From: Dehalococcoidia bacterium
GTDB taxonomy: Bacteria > Chloroflexota > Dehalococcoidia > Lucifugimonadales > Lucifugimonadaceae
Length of the DNA: 38,098 nucleotides
Direction: 5' to 3'
Assembly (NCBI GenBank): GCA_026421185.1
Contig: JAPKCH010000014.1
Span: forward strand, 1-38,098
The position numbers were made by a program, and so were the translations under genes. Positions within the stretch are counted from its first letter, which is position 1. Every line of letters starts with the position of its first letter. The notes under the pieces were generated by a model, which was given only the letters and a program-made list of their open reading frames with translations, was not told where the DNA came from and searched no databases. Below are positions 1,410 to 33,898 of this stretch, in pieces.

Positions 1410-1967
1410 TTAGTCACTGATGGTTGCAGCGAGTGATTCTTTGATTCGTTCGCAGGCTTTTTGCGATTGTTCGACCCAATCGCCTTCACAGAGAATGATG
1501 ACATTGTCGTAGATGGCGTACTCCCAGTAAAAAGCCTGATAACTCCCTCCTTCGACAAGTTGCTCGCGCTGCTATTTGTTGCCTGCTGTCCACATCATTT
1601 CATCGGTCACCATGACGGCGTTTTCGCCTACGGTATCCTCAACGAAAGTCGTTCCGAGGCTAACGGCCTTTTCATGAGAATTGTAGAAGCATAATTCGTA
1701 ACTGATAGGATCGATGCCGTTGTCTTTTTGGAACCCGTGAACTGCTGCTATGGCACCATTGAGGCCTTCGACGTCATATGTTTTGACCACTTTGAATCCG
1801 ATGTTAGCGAAATCACTAACTTTGAATGAAGTAGCGATGGGGTCGATTCCTACGTAGGTAGATTCTTCAGTTTCTTCACTATCGCCACAAGCAATTAGAA
1901 GGGTCGGAATGGCGAGCGCAAGCAGTAATGCAGAAATTGATTGAGTTAATTGGTTACGAAATTTCAT
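1410..1967 (-). pseudogene. Small lipoprotein with an in-frame amber codon; same domain as the cassette in the second permease
   Basis: The N-terminus is a lipoprotein signal: basic start, hydrophobic stretch, lipobox LIAC with the lipid-anchored Cys at residue 27, then an acidic linker. A domain of unknown function follows (GFKVVKTYDV, AVHGF, YELCFYNSHEKA, VGENAV). Translation meets TAG at 1572-1574 after 131 residues. The same frame continues for 53 more codons to TAA at 1410-1412, and this tail (YAIYDNVIILCEG, SQKACERIK) matches the second half of the homologous domain in the large permease (FDYIVVGNMVLLCQG, SIQACADLM). The stop therefore splits one domain. Either the gene is recently broken, the stop is read through, or the base is an assembly error. 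The 131-residue product would still carry signal and half the domain. The ribosome site sits in a hairpin at 1971-1994. Confidence 0.8.
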
Positions 1968-25767: not shown

Positions 25768-28700
25768 TTGCTTATATTCCGTAGGCGCTTACGTGCCGAT
25801 TTTTATCAAATGTTCGCCCTAGTGATGGGCGTGCTTGTGATGACGGCTATCCTCGCTGGTGCGCCGATGTATCTAAGTTCAATCGAGTCTCTGGGACTAC
25901 GATCCACTCTAGTAACTCTTTCAGCGTCAAATAGGAATATGCAGATTGTTGTCGAACAACTTCCGCTTACGAATAGTTCTGTTTCAGCTGCTACCGAACG
26001 TGTTCAAGTCGCACTCGATGAGCTGGACGACCTTGTCGTAACTGTTGGCCAGGAATCGCACACTAGACCACACTTTTGGGCAACTGATTCAAAATCTATA
26101 GTCGGCGGCTTGAAGCCTGATCTAGCGATACTACAGCGATTTGATAATTTTCTCGACGAAGTAGATATGCTCGAAGGGCATGAGCCGCAATCGATAGTAC
26201 TGCAGGAAGAAACGTATCTCGTAGCTGAAGTAGCGGTGCCTGCCGAGCGGGCCGAAGAATTAGGAATTGGCGTAGGCGATGAGATATGGCTTTCACCAAA
26301 CCCTCTTGATCCGCCATATTTGATGGCGAAAATAGTTGGTGTGTTCCATCCGAAAGATCTTGAATCAGAGTTTTGGTTGGGCTTAGGACTTGAGGTGACG
26401 GAGCCCGGTCGGCCTGCTGGAACAGCTGCTCGGTACATGCTGCCATTGTTCTTCACCCGAGATGGTTTATTTAATTCTGTGACAGGCGGAGCTGCTTCGA
26501 TCGGCACCAATCGATGGTTGATTCAGCTAGATCCTGTCCTCTTAGAACGTCAGAGACCAGCTTTTACGGCTGAACAAGTCGATGATGTGGGGCATGCACT
26601 CCGTCGTGGATTGCCAGAGTCTAAGGCGATAACAGCTCTTGAGAATCCACTCAGATCTCTTGGTAAAAAGATTGCGTTTGCTCGAATTCCAACGTTGATG
26701 ATGGGGGGAGTATTGCTGCTGGCAGCTGCTTACTATTCGATCATGGCTGCAGGTGCGCTGACTACTCGCCGACGTGTTGATACCGCTCGATTGTCTGCGC
26801 GTGGTTCGGGACGCCGGCAAGTTGCGTTTATGTTTTTCCTCGAGTCATTAGTTTTGGTGATACTCCCTGCTGTTACTGCACCGGTCTTAGCGTTAGGCGT
26901 CATAAATTTAATAGGATTACTGCCTGAGTACAAAGCGATCACATTAGGTTCGAGCATGCCGGTTTACATGAGCTGGCAAGCGTTCGCTTGGTCACTTATC
27001 GGTGCACTAATCGTTGTCTTGTACATGCAGTGGTCTGTGTCGAAAAGCGGTGGTCGAATAGTTGCTGATGCTCACGTATCGAGTCGACGGGTTGAAGGTA
27101 AGCCTTTCTTCCAACGCCAGTATCTGGACTTTTTATTTTTCATTTTTGGTGGCGTAATTCTGTGGGACTTATCAACTGAGTCATCGGTTGCTACAGCTAA
27201 AGAGGGTAGTGAAGCTATCGTCACAATTAATCCACTATTGATATTCGCACCGGCGATATTCCTCGGTGTAGTTGTGATGCTTTCGTTGCGATTATTACCA
27301 CCGATTGCTCGATTACTCTCAGGGATCTTCTCGAGGCGTGGACCGGTGTGGCCGCATCTTATTGCTGCGTTGTTTGCGAGAATTCCGCTTACTTACGCTT
27401 GGCCTGCTGCGATTATCGGCATGGCTGCTGGAACGGCGATGCTTTCGGCGACAGTTGCGTCAACTTTGCAACAAGGTTCTGTTGATCAATCGGGGTATGA
27501 GGTTGGCGCTGACCTTCGTGTATTCCCCGTTGATTTGAATAGTGGTTCTCGAACCAAAGTACTTGATCAGGTACGTAATATTGACGGTGTAAAGGAAGTT
27601 TCGGGAGGACTTAGAACTACTGGCGAAATCCGACTCGGCGGGCAGGGTGCTCCGTTCGAATTCCTTGCTATCGAACCTGATGAATTTAGTGACATCGGCG
27701 TATTCCGAGGCGATTACGCTGAGACCGATCTGGTTGAATTGGTCGAGAATTTGGGCCCAGTTTCGTTTGTAGAACCACTGGTAGTTACGGAACATGCTCG
27801 TCGAATCGGATATCGAATGCGTTCAGATATGATCGAACGGAGAATTCGGGCGAGCGTCAAATTGATCGATGCTGATGGCCTTTCACACACGGTCAATCTT
27901 GGGCCCGTTTCGAGTCGGAATTGGCAAGTTAGATTAGGTGATATTCCTAAGGTCGCATCGAGACCTGTTGAAATCGCCGGTCTCACATTTTTTGAACTGA
28001 CGCCAGACGAACTTGGCACGCAGGTGACTATTCAGATCGACGACTTGATGTATGAGTCGGCAGATTCGAGTGAGCTTGTAATTATCGACGGATTCGACGG
28101 CGATGTTGCTGAATGGAACCCATTGGCATCTTCCGAAGGTGTTGATACTCAAACGTCAGGATTCGGATATATCCGTAACAGTGATGGTGTATTCCAAGCG
28201 GACAACGGTCTGCAAATAAGTCTTGGAATTGGCACTGATCTTGGAACTCGAGGGATTGTTCGTTCAGCTTCGGACGTTATACCTATTTTGTTGAGTACGA
28301 CGGCTTTGGAATCGAACAATGTTGTAGTTGGTGACAATACTGTTATCCACGTATTTGAACGTTCGATTCCTGTGGAGATAGTTGGATCTACTGATTACTT
28401 CCCAACCCTGAGTCCTAATGATGGCGGGTTTGGTGTGGTTGATGTTTCTCAACTTTGGGCGCATTTAGCATTGAGTAGCGCAAACTCTGCTGGTGTCGCC
28501 TCCGAGCTATTCATCGGGCTTGATGAGGAAGTTGATGAAACGGTAAAGAATGCGATTTCATCGACGGTTGGTGGCTTGCATAGCGTTGTCGATCGGGAAG
28601 AGATTCAACTATCTTCAGTAGTCACTCCGCTGGCTGTTGCTGGTTGGCGCGGAGCGTCGATTGTCACAGCGATATTGGCTGTTTGTTTAGCGGTGCTTGG

Positions 28701-29073
28701 ATTCCTGACATTTGCTCCAATGCGACCGGCTGGTGATCATTTCAATCTGGCTATATTGCGAGCACTTGGAGTGCGTAAACGTGGGTTAGTGATGATTAGC
28801 GTTCTCGAGCAGTTGATGATTTTAGTAATTGGAATTGGTGCTGGAGTGGGGACTGGGCTGATTATGGCCCGTATCGCTGTGAATACTGCATCACAGACCG
28901 CTGCAACCGTGATCTTGCTTCCACCAATTGTGTTCTCCACGACATGGAACTACGTTGGTGGTTTGGTAGCAGCGTTATTGTTGGTGTCGGTACTTCTCGT
29001 TATTGTCGATTCAATTGCTGTTCGCAGCATCAATGTGGCCGGTACGCTACGTAATTTAGGGAAGAGCGGCTGA
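25768..29073 (+). CDS. Large FtsX/MacB-type ABC transporter permease, first of a pair
   Basis: A 1101-residue permease with a duplicated FtsX architecture. It has an N-terminal helix (residues 15-35), a large extracytoplasmic domain (to about 310), a block of helices near 310-510, and a further helix near 545-565. A second extracytoplasmic domain extends to about 950, and three terminal helices follow (WRGASIVTAILAVCLAVLG, LEQLMILVIGIGAG, and one near 1065). Such permeases work with a MacB-like ATPase, often moving lipids, lipoproteins or peptides, or acting mechanically. The only start is TTG at 25768-25770; the frame is open above it without ATG or GTG. It is one base from the second permease start, clearly the same operon. 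No ATPase gene precedes it. Confidence 0.88.
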   Translation: MLIFRRRLRADFYQMFALVMGVLVMTAILAGAPMYLSSIESLGLRSTLVTLSASNRNMQIVVEQLPLTNSSVSAATERVQVALDELDDLVVTVGQESHTRPHFWATDSKSIVGGLKPDLAILQRFDNFLDEVDMLEGHEPQSIVLQEETYLVAEVAVPAERAEELGIGVGDEIWLSPNPLDPPYLMAKIVGVFHPKDLESEFWLGLGLEVTEPGRPAGTAARYMLPLFFTRDGLFNSVTGGAASIGTNRWLIQLDPVLLERQRPAFTAEQVDDVGHALRRGLPESKAITALENPLRSLGKKIAFARIPTLMMGGVLLLAAAYYSIMAAGALTTRRRVDTARLSARGSGRRQVAFMFFLESLVLVILPAVTAPVLALGVINLIGLLPEYKAITLGSSMPVYMSWQAFAWSLIGALIVVLYMQWSVSKSGGRIVADAHVSSRRVEGKPFFQRQYLDFLFFIFGGVILWDLSTESSVATAKEGSEAIVTINPLLIFAPAIFLGVVVMLSLRLLPPIARLLSGIFSRRGPVWPHLIAALFARIPLTYAWPAAIIGMAAGTAMLSATVASTLQQGSVDQSGYEVGADLRVFPVDLNSGSRTKVLDQVRNIDGVKEVSGGLRTTGEIRLGGQGAPFEFLAIEPDEFSDIGVFRGDYAETDLVELVENLGPVSFVEPLVVTEHARRIGYRMRSDMIERRIRASVKLIDADGLSHTVNLGPVSSRNWQVRLGDIPKVASRPVEIAGLTFFELTPDELGTQVTIQIDDLMYESADSSELVIIDGFDGDVAEWNPLASSEGVDTQTSGFGYIRNSDGVFQADNGLQISLGIGTDLGTRGIVRSASDVIPILLSTTALESNNVVVGDNTVIHVFERSIPVEIVGSTDYFPTLSPNDGGFGVVDVSQLWAHLALSSANSAGVASELFIGLDEEVDETVKNAISSTVGGLHSVVDREEIQLSSVVTPLAVAGWRGASIVTAILAVCLAVLGFLTFAPMRPAGDHFNLAILRALGVRKRGLVMISVLEQLMILVIGIGAGVGTGLIMARIAVNTASQTAATVILLPPIVFSTTWNYVGGLVAALLLVSVLLVIVDSIAVRSINVAGTLRNLGKSG

Positions 29074-29074
29074 T

Positions 29075-32000
29075 ATGGGACCACGAGCATTCATGGGATT
29101 TGTTGGCCGTCGAACTCGTTCGCATTGGCCAATGCTGACAGTCGTTTCGGTTGGTGTAGTAGCTGCGGTTGCGACTATCGCCGCCAGTGTTATTTATTTT
29201 GATTCGCTTGGTGATATCGCTCTAGAGCGTGAGATCTCGACTGATGGCGGCGCTAATCACGACATTGTGATTACCGGACGTGAAATTGGGATTGATACCG
29301 CTAGCAATAGCGAAATTCTTGAATTAGTCGATTTAGCGGTTAGAGAAGTTGCTTCATCAGTCATCACCGATTCAACGGTTTCGTACGGTTCCCCTACATT
29401 ACTTATCGAGCAAGAAGAAGGTCTTAGCACTGAAGAAACGGTAGATGATTCTTGGCGAGCAGTTATGTTCAATACGCCTGATCTACAGACCAATTCAGTG
29501 CTGACGACAGGTGAATGGCCGACTGAAAAAGTGAGTTTTGCTGAGCCAGGGCAGATGCTTATTGAGGCGGCAATCGATGAGTCAGCGGCAGAATCGTTCG
29601 GTCTCGTTACTGGTGATGTCGTAGTTGTCGCTCCGTTCTGGGATGACATAAATGATTCGATCGCAGTTCGAGTTTCCGGTACCTATGTTCGTGGTGAACA
29701 GGATGCTAGATTCTGGAAAGATCTCGACGATCAATTTGGTCTGGATGATACGGATCTTAAGTTCCTGCCGTTTGTTCCTAATTCCAACGTTTTTGAATCG
29801 AACATAGGTCGTTATTTTCCTAGTATGTCGGTTAAGTATTTCTGGCGTTACTACGTTGATTCTTCTCGTGTGCAGGCATCGACTGCTAACAAGTTGTTGT
29901 TGGGGTTCGAGGAAATCAAGGCTCAATTGCAGCCGAAGATCAGCAGCTATTCCCAAGATATTCCCCTTCAAGATGTATTAACCCGAAACCAGCAGCAGAC
30001 GTTCTTCAGTCGTTTGCCTATGATGGTTGTGTTCTCGGTTATCGCTGCTGTTGTTCTTTACTTCGTTGCCACGATGTCGATTCTAATGGTCGAGACACAG
30101 GCAAGCGATATTGCACGATTGCGCACCCGTGCTGCGACAGTTCGACAAGTGGTCGGCGCATTTGTAATTGAGGGTGCAGTGGTCGCATTGCTTGCGATAT
30201 TGCTTGCACCGCCAATTGCAGCGCTAGTTGTGAAGTGGATAGGCGTGATCCCACTATTTAGTGAACTGAACGGCGGTAATCCGCTTCCTGTAACTCTTGG
30301 TCAGACGGCGTACGTTGTGTCGGCGATTACAGGCTTAGCTGGATTCATTGCGATGGTAGTTCCTGCGTCGATGTCAGCCAAGAAAACTGTTGTTAGTAGC
30401 GTGCGTGAATCGACTCGACCTGCGGCGCAAAGTGCGATGCAGAAGTACTACCTTGATGTAGCTTTGCTTGGTCTGCTTCTTGTATTTGCTTCTCAGCTCA
30501 CTAGTGAAGGTTCGTTCGTTGATGTTCCGGGCGTGGGAGCAGCTCAGGTCGATAAGATCAACGTGGTAATGCCAGCATTGGTTCTAGCGTTCGGCGGCTT
30601 CGTAGCGTTGAGGGCGTTCCCGGCGTTGGTTGAGGTGGTTGCGATATTGACTTCCTTACCTCGTATATCGAGTCTCGTTTCACCTGCAATTACTTTGGTT
30701 CTGTGGCAGATGGCGAGGAATCCTCGTCACTACTCACGGCTTTCACTATTGATGATTTTGACTGCTGGGTTAGGCGTATTTGCATCGAGTTTCGCTGGGA
30801 CATTGGACGTAAGTGCCGCCGATAGGGCGAGATACCAGTCCGGGGCGGATCTACGAGTAAACGGTGTTTCTTACACGAACCGTGTTCAGGCAGGAGATAC
30901 GTTTCGGCGAATCGATGAGACTCCGGGTGTGGAATCTGCGGCTCCGGTGTTCAGGACGGTTGGTGTCGACTTGACCGCTGATGTTGGAAGTACGTTCACA
31001 TTCTTGGGAGTAGATCCTGAGCCGATGGCGGGGATTGCATGGTCCCGGGATGATTTTGCTTCGAGTTCACTCAGTAGTCAAATGACAAGCCTCACAGATT
31101 CTCGATCAGGTATTCCAATCCCAGAAGACACACTCTTTGTGACGGCGAAGGTTCGCCCGACCGCTCGTCGTGCTGACTCGCGTGTTACAGCACGGCTAAG
31201 CGATTCTACCGGGCGATTGTTCACACTAAATCTCGGGTCATTATTGCCGAGGTCTGCTTCAAAAATAACCTCAGCCAAAGATATAAATAAGGCTTTCCTC
31301 AACAGCGTAGGTCCGGGATATGGTGCCTCACCTCTTCATATGGCGGTCCTGACAAACAACAAAGAAATTGCTGGACTTCTTATTGATAACGGCGCTGATA
31401 TAGACACAAAGGCGAAGGACGTTGATGCAGGTACACCATTACATTGGGCCGTTTATATGGAAAATAGAGAAATGGCGGAATTACTGATTGAGCGCGGTGC
31501 CGACGTCAATGCTGAGAACAAAGCGGGCTACAGGCCGATTGATTTCGGATCAGAAGGTTTTGTTGGACCCGAATGGTTTGATCGAGAAAACTCTGGCTTC
31601 ACTCTCTCAATCGTAAAGCCCGATGCTAACTTGAATTTACTGAAGGTAGACCCATCGCCTAAGATCTACACACTACAGAGCCTGCTCGATGTTGGCTTTA
31701 AGACGAACAGGACTTACTCAGTTGTCAATCTTGAGAGTGCAACTGGGGCTCATCATGGGTTTTACGGTCGAGATCCATACAACAGGCTTGAGTACGAGGT
31801 GCGTTTCTATCCAACGCACGCTGAAGCCAGTGATGTTGGAATTGATTTTGCTGATGAGGTTATAGGAGAAGATGCCGTGGCTGAGGATCTCCAGCGGTGG
31901 CAGGAGGGTTTTGGAGAACGACGCCAGTGCACTACAAGAGGTCGCCGCTGGCCACCTGATTGCGACAATCCTAAATATTTTGACTACATCGTAGTCGGAA

Positions 32001-33496
32001 ATATGGTGCTTTTATGTCAGGGAAAAGACTCCTCGAGTTCTATTCAAGCCTGTGCCGACTTAATGCAAGCCATTGAGGGCAAAGGGTTGCCAATTAGTGG
32101 CCAGATTGCTGAAACTGAGGAAAGTAAAACAACCGCAGATCTTATTGCGTCACTACAACAGTTCGAAGTTGTGACCTCACTAAAGGATGAGGAAATATTT
32201 GAAGCCATCTTAGAATCTGATACAGCTGCCATAAACCGGTATTTAGGATTAGGCAGTTGTGAGGTAGTTGAAGCGGCTTTGCCACCAAAGTGGTGCATTC
32301 TTTCTGGTTCTTTAAAAGGGATCGACTACACCGCCATTAATCCCGCTCCGCCGTTCCGTTTAGAGTTCATTGGTGTGGGTCTGCCGAACGTAGAACGTGC
32401 CAGGTTCAGTCGAACTGATCCCCCTTTCCTGGATGCAGGATCGTTTGAAATTGATGAGTTAGCTTTTGTACTAGAAAGCGGCGTTACACAAGTTGTTGAA
32501 GACTTTAACGAGGATTCTTCATGGATGACTGTTGAACCCGGCTTGAACCAGTATGGTGCCAGGCTTGAGCCTCTTCTTGCGAAGCCTTCAGGCAGCGAAG
32601 ATGATGAGAACGCTGTACTGCAGGACCAAAGCATAGCTGTGATGACGTGGAATCCGGTTGTAGTTACTCAACTGCGTGGTGTGACGGTTGGTTCCGAGAG
32701 TGCCCCAATTCCGGTTATTGCTAGCACAGGATTTATGGATCGTGGCGGATATAACGTCGGTGAGCGGATCAACGTCGATGTGCAGGGGGCAAATGTTCCT
32801 GTTCGACTTGCCGGGATTGCCGACTACTTTCCAACACTTGATCCTGAATTTTCTACTTTTATAGTTGCTGATATTCGATCGACTTGGCTCGCTTTGAACG
32901 CAAACAAAATGCGAAACGCTGAGCAGGCGAACGAAGTTTGGATTGATACGGGCGATGCTGCGCCTTCTGAAGTTGCCAACGCAATTAGGGGTAGAACTAC
33001 TGTTCCACCTTCATTTATTGCGCAGGATCAGTTACTTCGTGATGCTGCTGTCGATCCACTAATTTCCGCCGGTTGGCGTGCATTGCTGGCGATTGCGTTT
33101 ACCACGGTTCTTGCGGCAAGCGCGGTTGGCTTCCTTGTGTATTCTCAGGTCACTTTCGCTTCACGTATGACGGAATATGCTGTGGTACGTACGCTGGGTC
33201 TCACGACTCGTCAGGTACTTGGACTGGTTACGCTCGAACTGTTAATGGTTTTAGTACCAGCGGTTCTTGTCGGCGGTTTGCTCGGAATGCGCATGGGGGC
33301 AACGATCATTCCATTCCTTGTAACTTCGGGAGAAGGCGTACTAGTTGTGCCGCCGGTAGTGCTCAGTGTCGATTGGCAAGCCGTTGGGGTGTTGGTTGGC
33401 GTGATTGGCGCAATATTCCTTGCGATTTCAGTAGGTTTGATCTCATCCGTACGCAAAATATCTCCACCTAGTGTGATGCGTATGGGACAGAACTAA
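29075..33496 (+). CDS. Large FtsX/MacB-type permease with an in-frame ankyrin/lipoprotein-domain cassette
   Basis: Sister of the upstream permease: same two FtsX halves, terminal helices and motifs (IADYFPTLDPEF versus STDYFPTLSPND). It is 1473 residues; without residues 725-1069 it would be 1128, close to the sister's 1101. The extra block lies in the second extracytoplasmic domain. It contains two ankyrin repeats (ASPLHMAVLTNNKEIAGLLI, TPLHWAVYMENREMAELLIE) at about 740-825, then a domain at about 860-1002 shared with the lipoprotein at 1410-1967, then the front of another ankyrin-like helix pair (IFEAILESDTAAINRYL) cut short. Removing the block leaves NLGSLLPPKWCILSG, which aligns gap-free with NLGPVSSRNWQVRLG of the sister. 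The frame is open throughout, so a fusion protein could be made. Start ATG, two bases after the previous stop. Confidence 0.85.
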   Translation: MGPRAFMGFVGRRTRSHWPMLTVVSVGVVAAVATIAASVIYFDSLGDIALEREISTDGGANHDIVITGREIGIDTASNSEILELVDLAVREVASSVITDSTVSYGSPTLLIEQEEGLSTEETVDDSWRAVMFNTPDLQTNSVLTTGEWPTEKVSFAEPGQMLIEAAIDESAAESFGLVTGDVVVVAPFWDDINDSIAVRVSGTYVRGEQDARFWKDLDDQFGLDDTDLKFLPFVPNSNVFESNIGRYFPSMSVKYFWRYYVDSSRVQASTANKLLLGFEEIKAQLQPKISSYSQDIPLQDVLTRNQQQTFFSRLPMMVVFSVIAAVVLYFVATMSILMVETQASDIARLRTRAATVRQVVGAFVIEGAVVALLAILLAPPIAALVVKWIGVIPLFSELNGGNPLPVTLGQTAYVVSAITGLAGFIAMVVPASMSAKKTVVSSVRESTRPAAQSAMQKYYLDVALLGLLLVFASQLTSEGSFVDVPGVGAAQVDKINVVMPALVLAFGGFVALRAFPALVEVVAILTSLPRISSLVSPAITLVLWQMARNPRHYSRLSLLMILTAGLGVFASSFAGTLDVSAADRARYQSGADLRVNGVSYTNRVQAGDTFRRIDETPGVESAAPVFRTVGVDLTADVGSTFTFLGVDPEPMAGIAWSRDDFASSSLSSQMTSLTDSRSGIPIPEDTLFVTAKVRPTARRADSRVTARLSDSTGRLFTLNLGSLLPRSASKITSAKDINKAFLNSVGPGYGASPLHMAVLTNNKEIAGLLIDNGADIDTKAKDVDAGTPLHWAVYMENREMAELLIERGADVNAENKAGYRPIDFGSEGFVGPEWFDRENSGFTLSIVKPDANLNLLKVDPSPKIYTLQSLLDVGFKTNRTYSVVNLESATGAHHGFYGRDPYNRLEYEVRFYPTHAEASDVGIDFADEVIGEDAVAEDLQRWQEGFGERRQCTTRGRRWPPDCDNPKYFDYIVVGNMVLLCQGKDSSSSIQACADLMQAIEGKGLPISGQIAETEESKTTADLIASLQQFEVVTSLKDEEIFEAILESDTAAINRYLGLGSCEVVEAALPPKWCILSGSLKGIDYTAINPAPPFRLEFIGVGLPNVERARFSRTDPPFLDAGSFEIDELAFVLESGVTQVVEDFNEDSSWMTVEPGLNQYGARLEPLLAKPSGSEDDENAVLQDQSIAVMTWNPVVVTQLRGVTVGSESAPIPVIASTGFMDRGGYNVGERINVDVQGANVPVRLAGIADYFPTLDPEFSTFIVADIRSTWLALNANKMRNAEQANEVWIDTGDAAPSEVANAIRGRTTVPPSFIAQDQLLRDAAVDPLISAGWRALLAIAFTTVLAASAVGFLVYSQVTFASRMTEYAVVRTLGLTTRQVLGLVTLELLMVLVPAVLVGGLLGMRMGATIIPFLVTSGEGVLVVPPVVLSVDWQAVGVLVGVIGAIFLAISVGLISSVRKISPPSVMRMGQN
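31244..32283 (+). mobile_element. Inserted cassette inside the second permease, flanked by TTGCC copies
   Basis: The sequence between TTGCC at 31244-31248 and TTGCC at 32279-32283 interrupts the permease by 1035 bases (345 codons), so frame is kept. Close to the ends are imperfect inverted repeats: GCTTCAA then AACCTCA on the left (31256-31273), TGAGGTA then TTGAAGC on the right (32260-32274). No transposase or integrase is encoded. Calling it mobile is inference from the clean junction and the repeated domain elsewhere; five-base direct repeats can occur by chance. Confidence 0.45.
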
Positions 33497-33531
33497 CGGA
33501 TTCTGTATGGGTCGGCGAAAGATTCGTCAAA

Positions 33532-33853
33532 ATGAAAGGGTTAAGATTAGTTTCTGTGGAAGTATTACTTTCGATCGAAAATCTGACGAAGCGATATCAG
33601 GGGGCGTGGTATTAAACGACGTCAGCTTAGAGGTTTCTAACGGTATTACTGGAATTCTTGGTGTGAATGGCGTGGGAAAAGTACGGCGATAAAAATCGTT
33701 TTGGGCCTGCTTTAACCTACGTACGGGTCATCAAAAATTCTTGGTGAAACAGCTGCTGAAAATATCAACGTTCGCTCTCGGCTCGGCTACATGCCTGAGC
33801 ACGAATGCTTACCGTCGAACGTGACGGCAGCTGAGTTCCGGACTCATATGTAG
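33532..33853 (+). pseudogene. Wrecked ABC transporter ATPase gene
   Basis: Remains of the ATPase that should power the two permeases. Frame 1 starts at ATG 33532 and gives LSIENLTKRYQG. A missing G in the run 33600-33604 shifts the frame, and the next frame gives VVLNDVSLEVSNGITGILG and the Walker A start VNGVGK. A missing A in the run 33677-33680 shifts it again to STAIKIVLGLL. TAA at 33713-33715 then stops it. The same frame continues with VRSRLGYMPEHECLPSNV, a typical post-Walker segment, and ends after TAAEFRTHM at TAG 33851-33853. No Q-loop-to-Walker-B part or signature motif follows, so about two thirds of the gene are gone. Homopolymer losses could be sequencing error; the stop and truncation are harder to explain that way. 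Confidence 0.88.
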
Positions 33854-33898
33854 GTTATTGGTATTTAATTTTTGACAGATCATACAGTCTTACTCGAG

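Follow-up and report, generated by a model that had tools for sequence, protein, structure and literature searches.

Genes and features of the window

The window, by which we mean the whole 38,098 nt stretch of DNA analysed, belongs to genome G000 of the SAR202 genus Ca. Lucifugimonas. It carries a broken lipoprotein gene and, some 30 kb away, a pair of genes for FtsX-type permeases, the second of which contains a block of ankyrin repeats and a DUF6810 domain. The features are as follows.

1411..1967, minus strand: stand-alone DUF6810 lipoprotein gene, broken (signal peptide, lipobox LLIACGD, PF20650, in-frame TAG)
1572..1574, minus strand: in-frame TAG truncating the stand-alone gene at codon 132 (sequence reading)
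25768..29073, plus strand: first FtsX-type permease of the pair, 1101 aa, without insert (PF02687)
29075..33496, plus strand: second FtsX-type permease, 1473 aa, with the insert in its second extracytoplasmic domain (PF02687, hydropathy topology, LolE-like fold)
31271..32254, plus strand: inserted block, residues 733-1060, 328 residues (absent from eight orthologues reading across the site; present in four species)
31271..31549, plus strand: ankyrin repeats 2 and 3, residues 733-825 (Pfam Ank; profile positions 75-163 of canonical ankyrin lipoproteins)
31637..32074, plus strand: DUF6810 domain, residues 855-1000 (PF20650; AlphaFold mean pLDDT 91.6)
32186..32254, plus strand: half repeat DEEIFEAILESDTAAINRYLGLG, residues 1038-1060, read as the displaced ankyrin repeat 1 (profile comparison, rejoined-query matches)
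33497..33860, plus strand: frameshifted ABC ATPase remnant after the second permease (77% over ATPase residues 60-121, internal stops; three-frame reading)

The second permease has two FtsX halves in one chain and matches PF02687 over two stretches (36.3 bits; cut-off 25.5), as expected of an FtsX-like protein. Hydropathy places its second extracytoplasmic domain at residues 575-1336, a loop of 762 residues bounded by predicted helices that end at 574 and start at 1337. The AlphaFold model of this domain (mean pLDDT 70) matches the fold of LolE of LolCDE with a Z score of 16.4-16.8 over 189-191 residues, and the match is spread around the insert over the whole domain (model range 1-745), so that the host domain is LolE-like in fold. 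Against TIGR02212, the NCBIfam equivalog for LolC/LolE, the permease scored only 19.3 bits (cut-off 362.45); it has the FtsX permease domain in common with LolE and LolC, but is much longer, has two FtsX halves per chain and bears the insert. Cultured SAR202 strains have a monoderm envelope and lack peptidoglycan synthesis genes (PMC10444878), and Lol-type release to an outer membrane is therefore not expected.

No cognate ATPase gene was found in the window beside the two FtsX-type permeases (25768-33496). The ABC ATPase gene of which a remnant follows the second permease is intact after the same permease in uninserted relatives (G013, G014, G004 and others). The ABC-2 genes that come after that ATPase are gone in all four insert carriers and also in two of the eight other genomes; with a Fisher p of 0.06, a link between this loss and the insert is offered only as a remark.

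Two regions of the window belong to one family

An earlier note on this DNA had proposed that the stand-alone lipoprotein and the permease contain the same domain, and our comparison bears this out. Permease residues 855-1004 and the 185-residue stand-alone frame, read through its stop, align over 144 residues with 28% identity and 50% positives (BLASTP, 75.5 bits, E 1e-22), which rules out chance similarity, and the shared motifs that had been quoted were found in matching order. Profile comparison, the test that had been suggested for homology, placed both regions in PF20650 (DUF6810): the permease copy scored 134.9 bits (140.5 in the genome search), and the stand-alone copy 79.3 bits up to its stop and 116.4 bits when read through (genome search), all above the Pfam gathering cut-off of 25 bits. 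Because both regions match PF20650, the domain is one already catalogued, though of unknown function, and not the undescribed family for which it had been taken. Five residues (E54, R56, N122, C127 and C139, in permease-copy numbering) are invariant in 77 aligned DUF6810 copies, that of the permease included.

The extracytoplasmic location proposed for the domain in both contexts agrees with the lipobox of the stand-alone copy and with the position of the permease copy within an extracytoplasmic domain. Treating the two copies as a pair was justified in so far as they are homologous, but they are only two of about 20 DUF6810 hits in the genome. The suggestion that the domain occurs alone, with ankyrins or inside transporters also needs narrowing: the first and last contexts stand, whereas the ankyrin case is the same protein as the transporter case, since no other ankyrin fusion was found.

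A clean insertion in one loop of the permease

The earlier note had missed two properties of the permease region: orthologues lack the block, which is a clean insertion, and DUF6810 separates ankyrin repeats whose order is rotated. In eight orthologues, whose host parts are 72-80% identical, the sequence continues through the site without the insert. Its carriers are four of the 19 genomes of the genus (G000, G008, G011 and G001), and in these four metagenome-assembled genomes (MAGs) it stands in the same frame with conserved junctions. Judged from these alignments, residues 733-1060 are a clean in-frame insertion into one loop of the LolE-like domain. An assembly chimera is ruled out by the junctions and frame common to the four MAGs. 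The gene order around the permease is the same in carriers and uninserted genomes, apart from gained or lost neighbours, and this likewise rules out that the inserted permease occupies a paralogous or foreign locus.

Within the insert, ankyrin repeats 2 and 3 come first, followed by DUF6810, a linker and then DEEIFEAILESDTAAINRYLGLG. Our searches found no free protein combining ankyrin repeats with DUF6810.

Ankyrin repeats in rotated order

The insert matches Pfam Ank with two repeats at 56.2 bits, above the cut-off. The same repeats, with the same unusual signature DIN.aF....GA.aLHlAV.knn, are found in small ankyrin lipoproteins of the same order (L145-L149), which differ in being free lipoproteins with the repeats arranged 1-2-3 and without DUF6810. 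Against a canonical profile made from five ankyrin lipoproteins of this order, the N-terminal part of the insert matches positions 75-163 in all four carriers (106-114 bits), and the C-terminal part matches positions 53-73 and 54-73 in G011 and G008. The two parts thus follow one another in swapped order with adjoining profile ends (75-163, then 53-73), as in a permuted domain, although the C-terminal part taken alone is below significance. When the query was rejoined in canonical order, with DEEIFEAILESDTAAINRYLGLG first, contiguous matches ran across the join in ankyrin lipoproteins of 186-212 aa from other genera and families of the order, the best being in G050 (43% over positions 7-118), with four more at 36-40%. 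Rejoining also added 2-6 bits to the Ank_2 score and extended the match further towards the profile start. On the strength of the swapped profile matches and their adjoining ends, the ankyrin domain appears to be circularly permuted, with DUF6810 as the connector bridging its ends.

Selection, a second capture and probable spread

Synonymous sites are saturated for most pairs of genomes, and dN/dS is reported from one unsaturated pair, G011-G008 (dS of 0.26-0.63 across insert and host). In this pair dN/dS was 0.09 for the host, 0.20 for the insert and 0.07 for DUF6810, with 0.23 for ankyrin repeats 2-3 and 0.27 for the 26 codons of repeat 1. Selection on the insert is purifying.

Four permease copies of DUF6810, one from each carrier, form one clade (support 100/100). 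The permease of G001 contains a second DUF6810, which is 80% identical to that genome's own stand-alone copy; it groups with the stand-alone copies of G002 and G016 (99/91) and was therefore captured separately. Between G001 and G000, identity reaches 88% at residues 686-745 (67-77% with other genomes) and 72% at residues 1046-1105 (55-65% with other genomes). G001 is closest to G000 mainly in the insert and the adjacent sequence, and elsewhere is about equally far from all genomes. This local likeness, together with a host tree in which the carriers are not united (weakly supported), points to homologous recombination as the means by which the insert and its flanks appear to have spread.

DUF6810 as a lipoprotein family

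DUF6810 is specific to one lineage: among the genomes searched, these lipoproteins are confined to a single SAR202 family. The window genome has 21 hits (about 20 copies), its genus mates have 4-26 each, and other genera of the same family vary; none was found in 23 genomes from other families of the order, and matches among 400 genomes drawn from the phylum were confined to two, both of the same family. A scan of named genomes returned only Chloroflexota MAGs and Ca. Lucifugimonas marina JH1073, a result that assigns the window to SAR202. Carriage by viruses was not confirmed in any viral contig, and there was no PHROG match. A lipobox is present in every one of the 116 non-permease copies examined (strict pattern in 101, recognised by eye in the other 15), and in a monoderm envelope such as that described for SAR202 isolates (PMC10444878) these lipoproteins would be expected on the outer face of the cytoplasmic membrane. 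Whereas the other copies of the Pfam family that we examined are free lipoproteins, the permease copy lies without a lipobox in a polytopic permease. A literature search returned no mention of DUF6810, and nothing relevant on SAR202 lipoprotein paralogues or on ankyrin or LolE fusions.

Arrays of five to six DUF6810 lipoprotein genes were seen at L116:8990-12488, L117:7929-11807 and L228:4378-7519; these arrays, in G000, G013 and G001, adjoin an oligopeptide-type SBP_bac_5 lipoprotein and an ABC importer. At L091, L092 and L104-L107 (minus strand), lipoproteins of ~400 aa combine a C-terminal DUF6810 with a cysteine-containing region, ECLxxELG...CG; a region of this type also builds a neighbouring lipoprotein of 330-400 aa.

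The AlphaFold prediction for DUF6810 is confident, and its best fold match is the extracellular sensor of PknH from Mycobacterium tuberculosis (4esq), which is also extracytoplasmic. This match is weak (Z 5.8 over 113 residues, rmsd 4.3; Foldseek E 0.11), carries no sequence signal and is a lead only. The mycobacterial TiME domain scores lower (Z 4.5), and a sequence-profile search found no solved structure related to DUF6810.

A proposed recognition module

With moderate confidence, we favour a reading in which a permuted ankyrin/DUF6810 lipoprotein module was captured in a loop of an FtsX permease in Ca. Lucifugimonas and serves there as an attached recognition unit. The module would combine a small ankyrin lipoprotein with a DUF6810 lipoprotein, both from extracytoplasmic families, and would have entered one loop of the LolE-like domain in frame. 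Ankyrin repeat 1 would have moved to the C-terminal end, with DUF6810 connecting repeat 3 back to repeat 1; such a rotation would bring the start and the end of the block together, which insertion into a single loop requires, and repeat 1 would pack on repeat 2. The module may then serve in recognition, permanently attached to the permease and presenting a partner or ligand to it, a task that free DUF6810 lipoproteins would perform elsewhere. Our best guess, drawn from the arrays beside an importer and from the permease fusion, is that envelope transporters have DUF6810 lipoproteins as recognition partners, one of which may have become a fixed part of this permease; the argument for partner recognition is one of fusion logic. 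The domain capture itself is real and somewhat surprising, joining a known permease superfamily to a known, uncharacterised domain. A wider proposal, for and against which we find the case evenly balanced, sees a mobile cassette in a naturally permuted ankyrin solenoid whose ends are closed by a second lipoprotein domain. A LolE-type permease domain would have captured this cassette, which would have been extended once by a further capture and moved from species to species by homologous recombination, so that a diffusible lipoprotein partner became a covalent part of the transporter.

The rotation could be illusory, if two ordinary ankyrin repeats and DUF6810 were inserted and the C-terminal helical pair were an unrelated linker or part of the host. 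The 23-residue repeat-1 fragment by itself indeed scores below zero bits against the canonical profile, and residues 1038-1060 are modelled with low confidence, as two helices with a pLDDT of about 40-50. However, the summed alignment score of the fragment is 519 against 336 +/- 27 for shuffles, with none of 2000 joint shuffles as good; the profile ends are exactly complementary (73 and 75), and the fragment is conserved in all four carriers and absent from the uninserted orthologues. Given in addition the matches of canonical proteins across the rejoined point and the gain and further reach in the Ank_2 comparison, we consider an insert without permutation quite unlikely. It is also unlikely that the insert is a tolerated passenger, lipoprotein sequence received by recombination into a permissive loop with no functional gain. 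Such a view would suit the absence of the insert from most orthologues, and its fast-evolving linker (37-46% around residues 1001-1060, G001 vs other carriers), but the reading frame is open in all four copies, DUF6810 has a dN/dS (about 0.06-0.10) as low as that of the host, and G001 has gained a second DUF6810.

As to mechanism, DUF6810 might instead be a small-molecule sensor of the PknH type that, in the permease, gates transport by ligand, which would be compatible with the insertion. We regard this as possible but doubtful. The fold matches to PknH and TiME, the two invariant cysteines (model positions 127 and 139) and the arrays that three species have beside a binding protein and an ABC importer of the peptide type speak for a sensor, but a Z score of 5.8 is within the range of chance arrangements, the Foldseek E-value is 0.11, and no sequence profile links the domain to any solved structure.

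The capture gives the family a wider interest. DUF6810 represents a large lipoprotein expansion in dark-ocean SAR202 bacteria, and its fusion to a LolE-type permease offers a first hint of the partner class. The insertion suggests that a rotated order allows a repeat solenoid to enter a single loop although its ends are distant, and inserted and uninserted orthologues can be compared within one genus.

Decay of the stand-alone copy

The stand-alone gene had been described as a lipoprotein gene 30 kb from the permease. It does have a signal peptide and a lipobox, but is broken by the in-frame TAG, and two of the motifs quoted for it, YAIYDNVIILCEG and SQKACERI, fall past this stop. In G008 the same slot, between an acyl-CoA dehydrogenase upstream and a sulfatase downstream, is occupied by a homologue with 46% identity as far as residue 130; its 3′ half is lost, and it continues in frame into the sulfatase, giving a frame of 406 residues. 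This fusion (L130:1357-2574, plus strand) joins the C-terminal half of the sulfatase to the DUF6810 lipoprotein. No DUF6810 copy lies between the acyl-CoA dehydrogenase and sulfatase genes of G011, G005 and G001. As the breakage differs between the window genome and G008, the gene at 1411-1967 is, from its sequence, a paralogue decaying independently in two species. That it still functions, through read-through of the TAG or as a lipoprotein cut short at 131 residues, is very unlikely: the family's conserved residues are kept in frame past the stop, but the truncated product would lack the last third of the domain, the G008 orthologue has been destroyed in another way, by deletion and fusion, and internal stops are absent from nearly all of the other DUF6810 copies listed. 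Another copy in the window genome, L013 (G000:C19:1753-2076), has an internal TGA, and decay of DUF6810 paralogues is thus not limited to the window.
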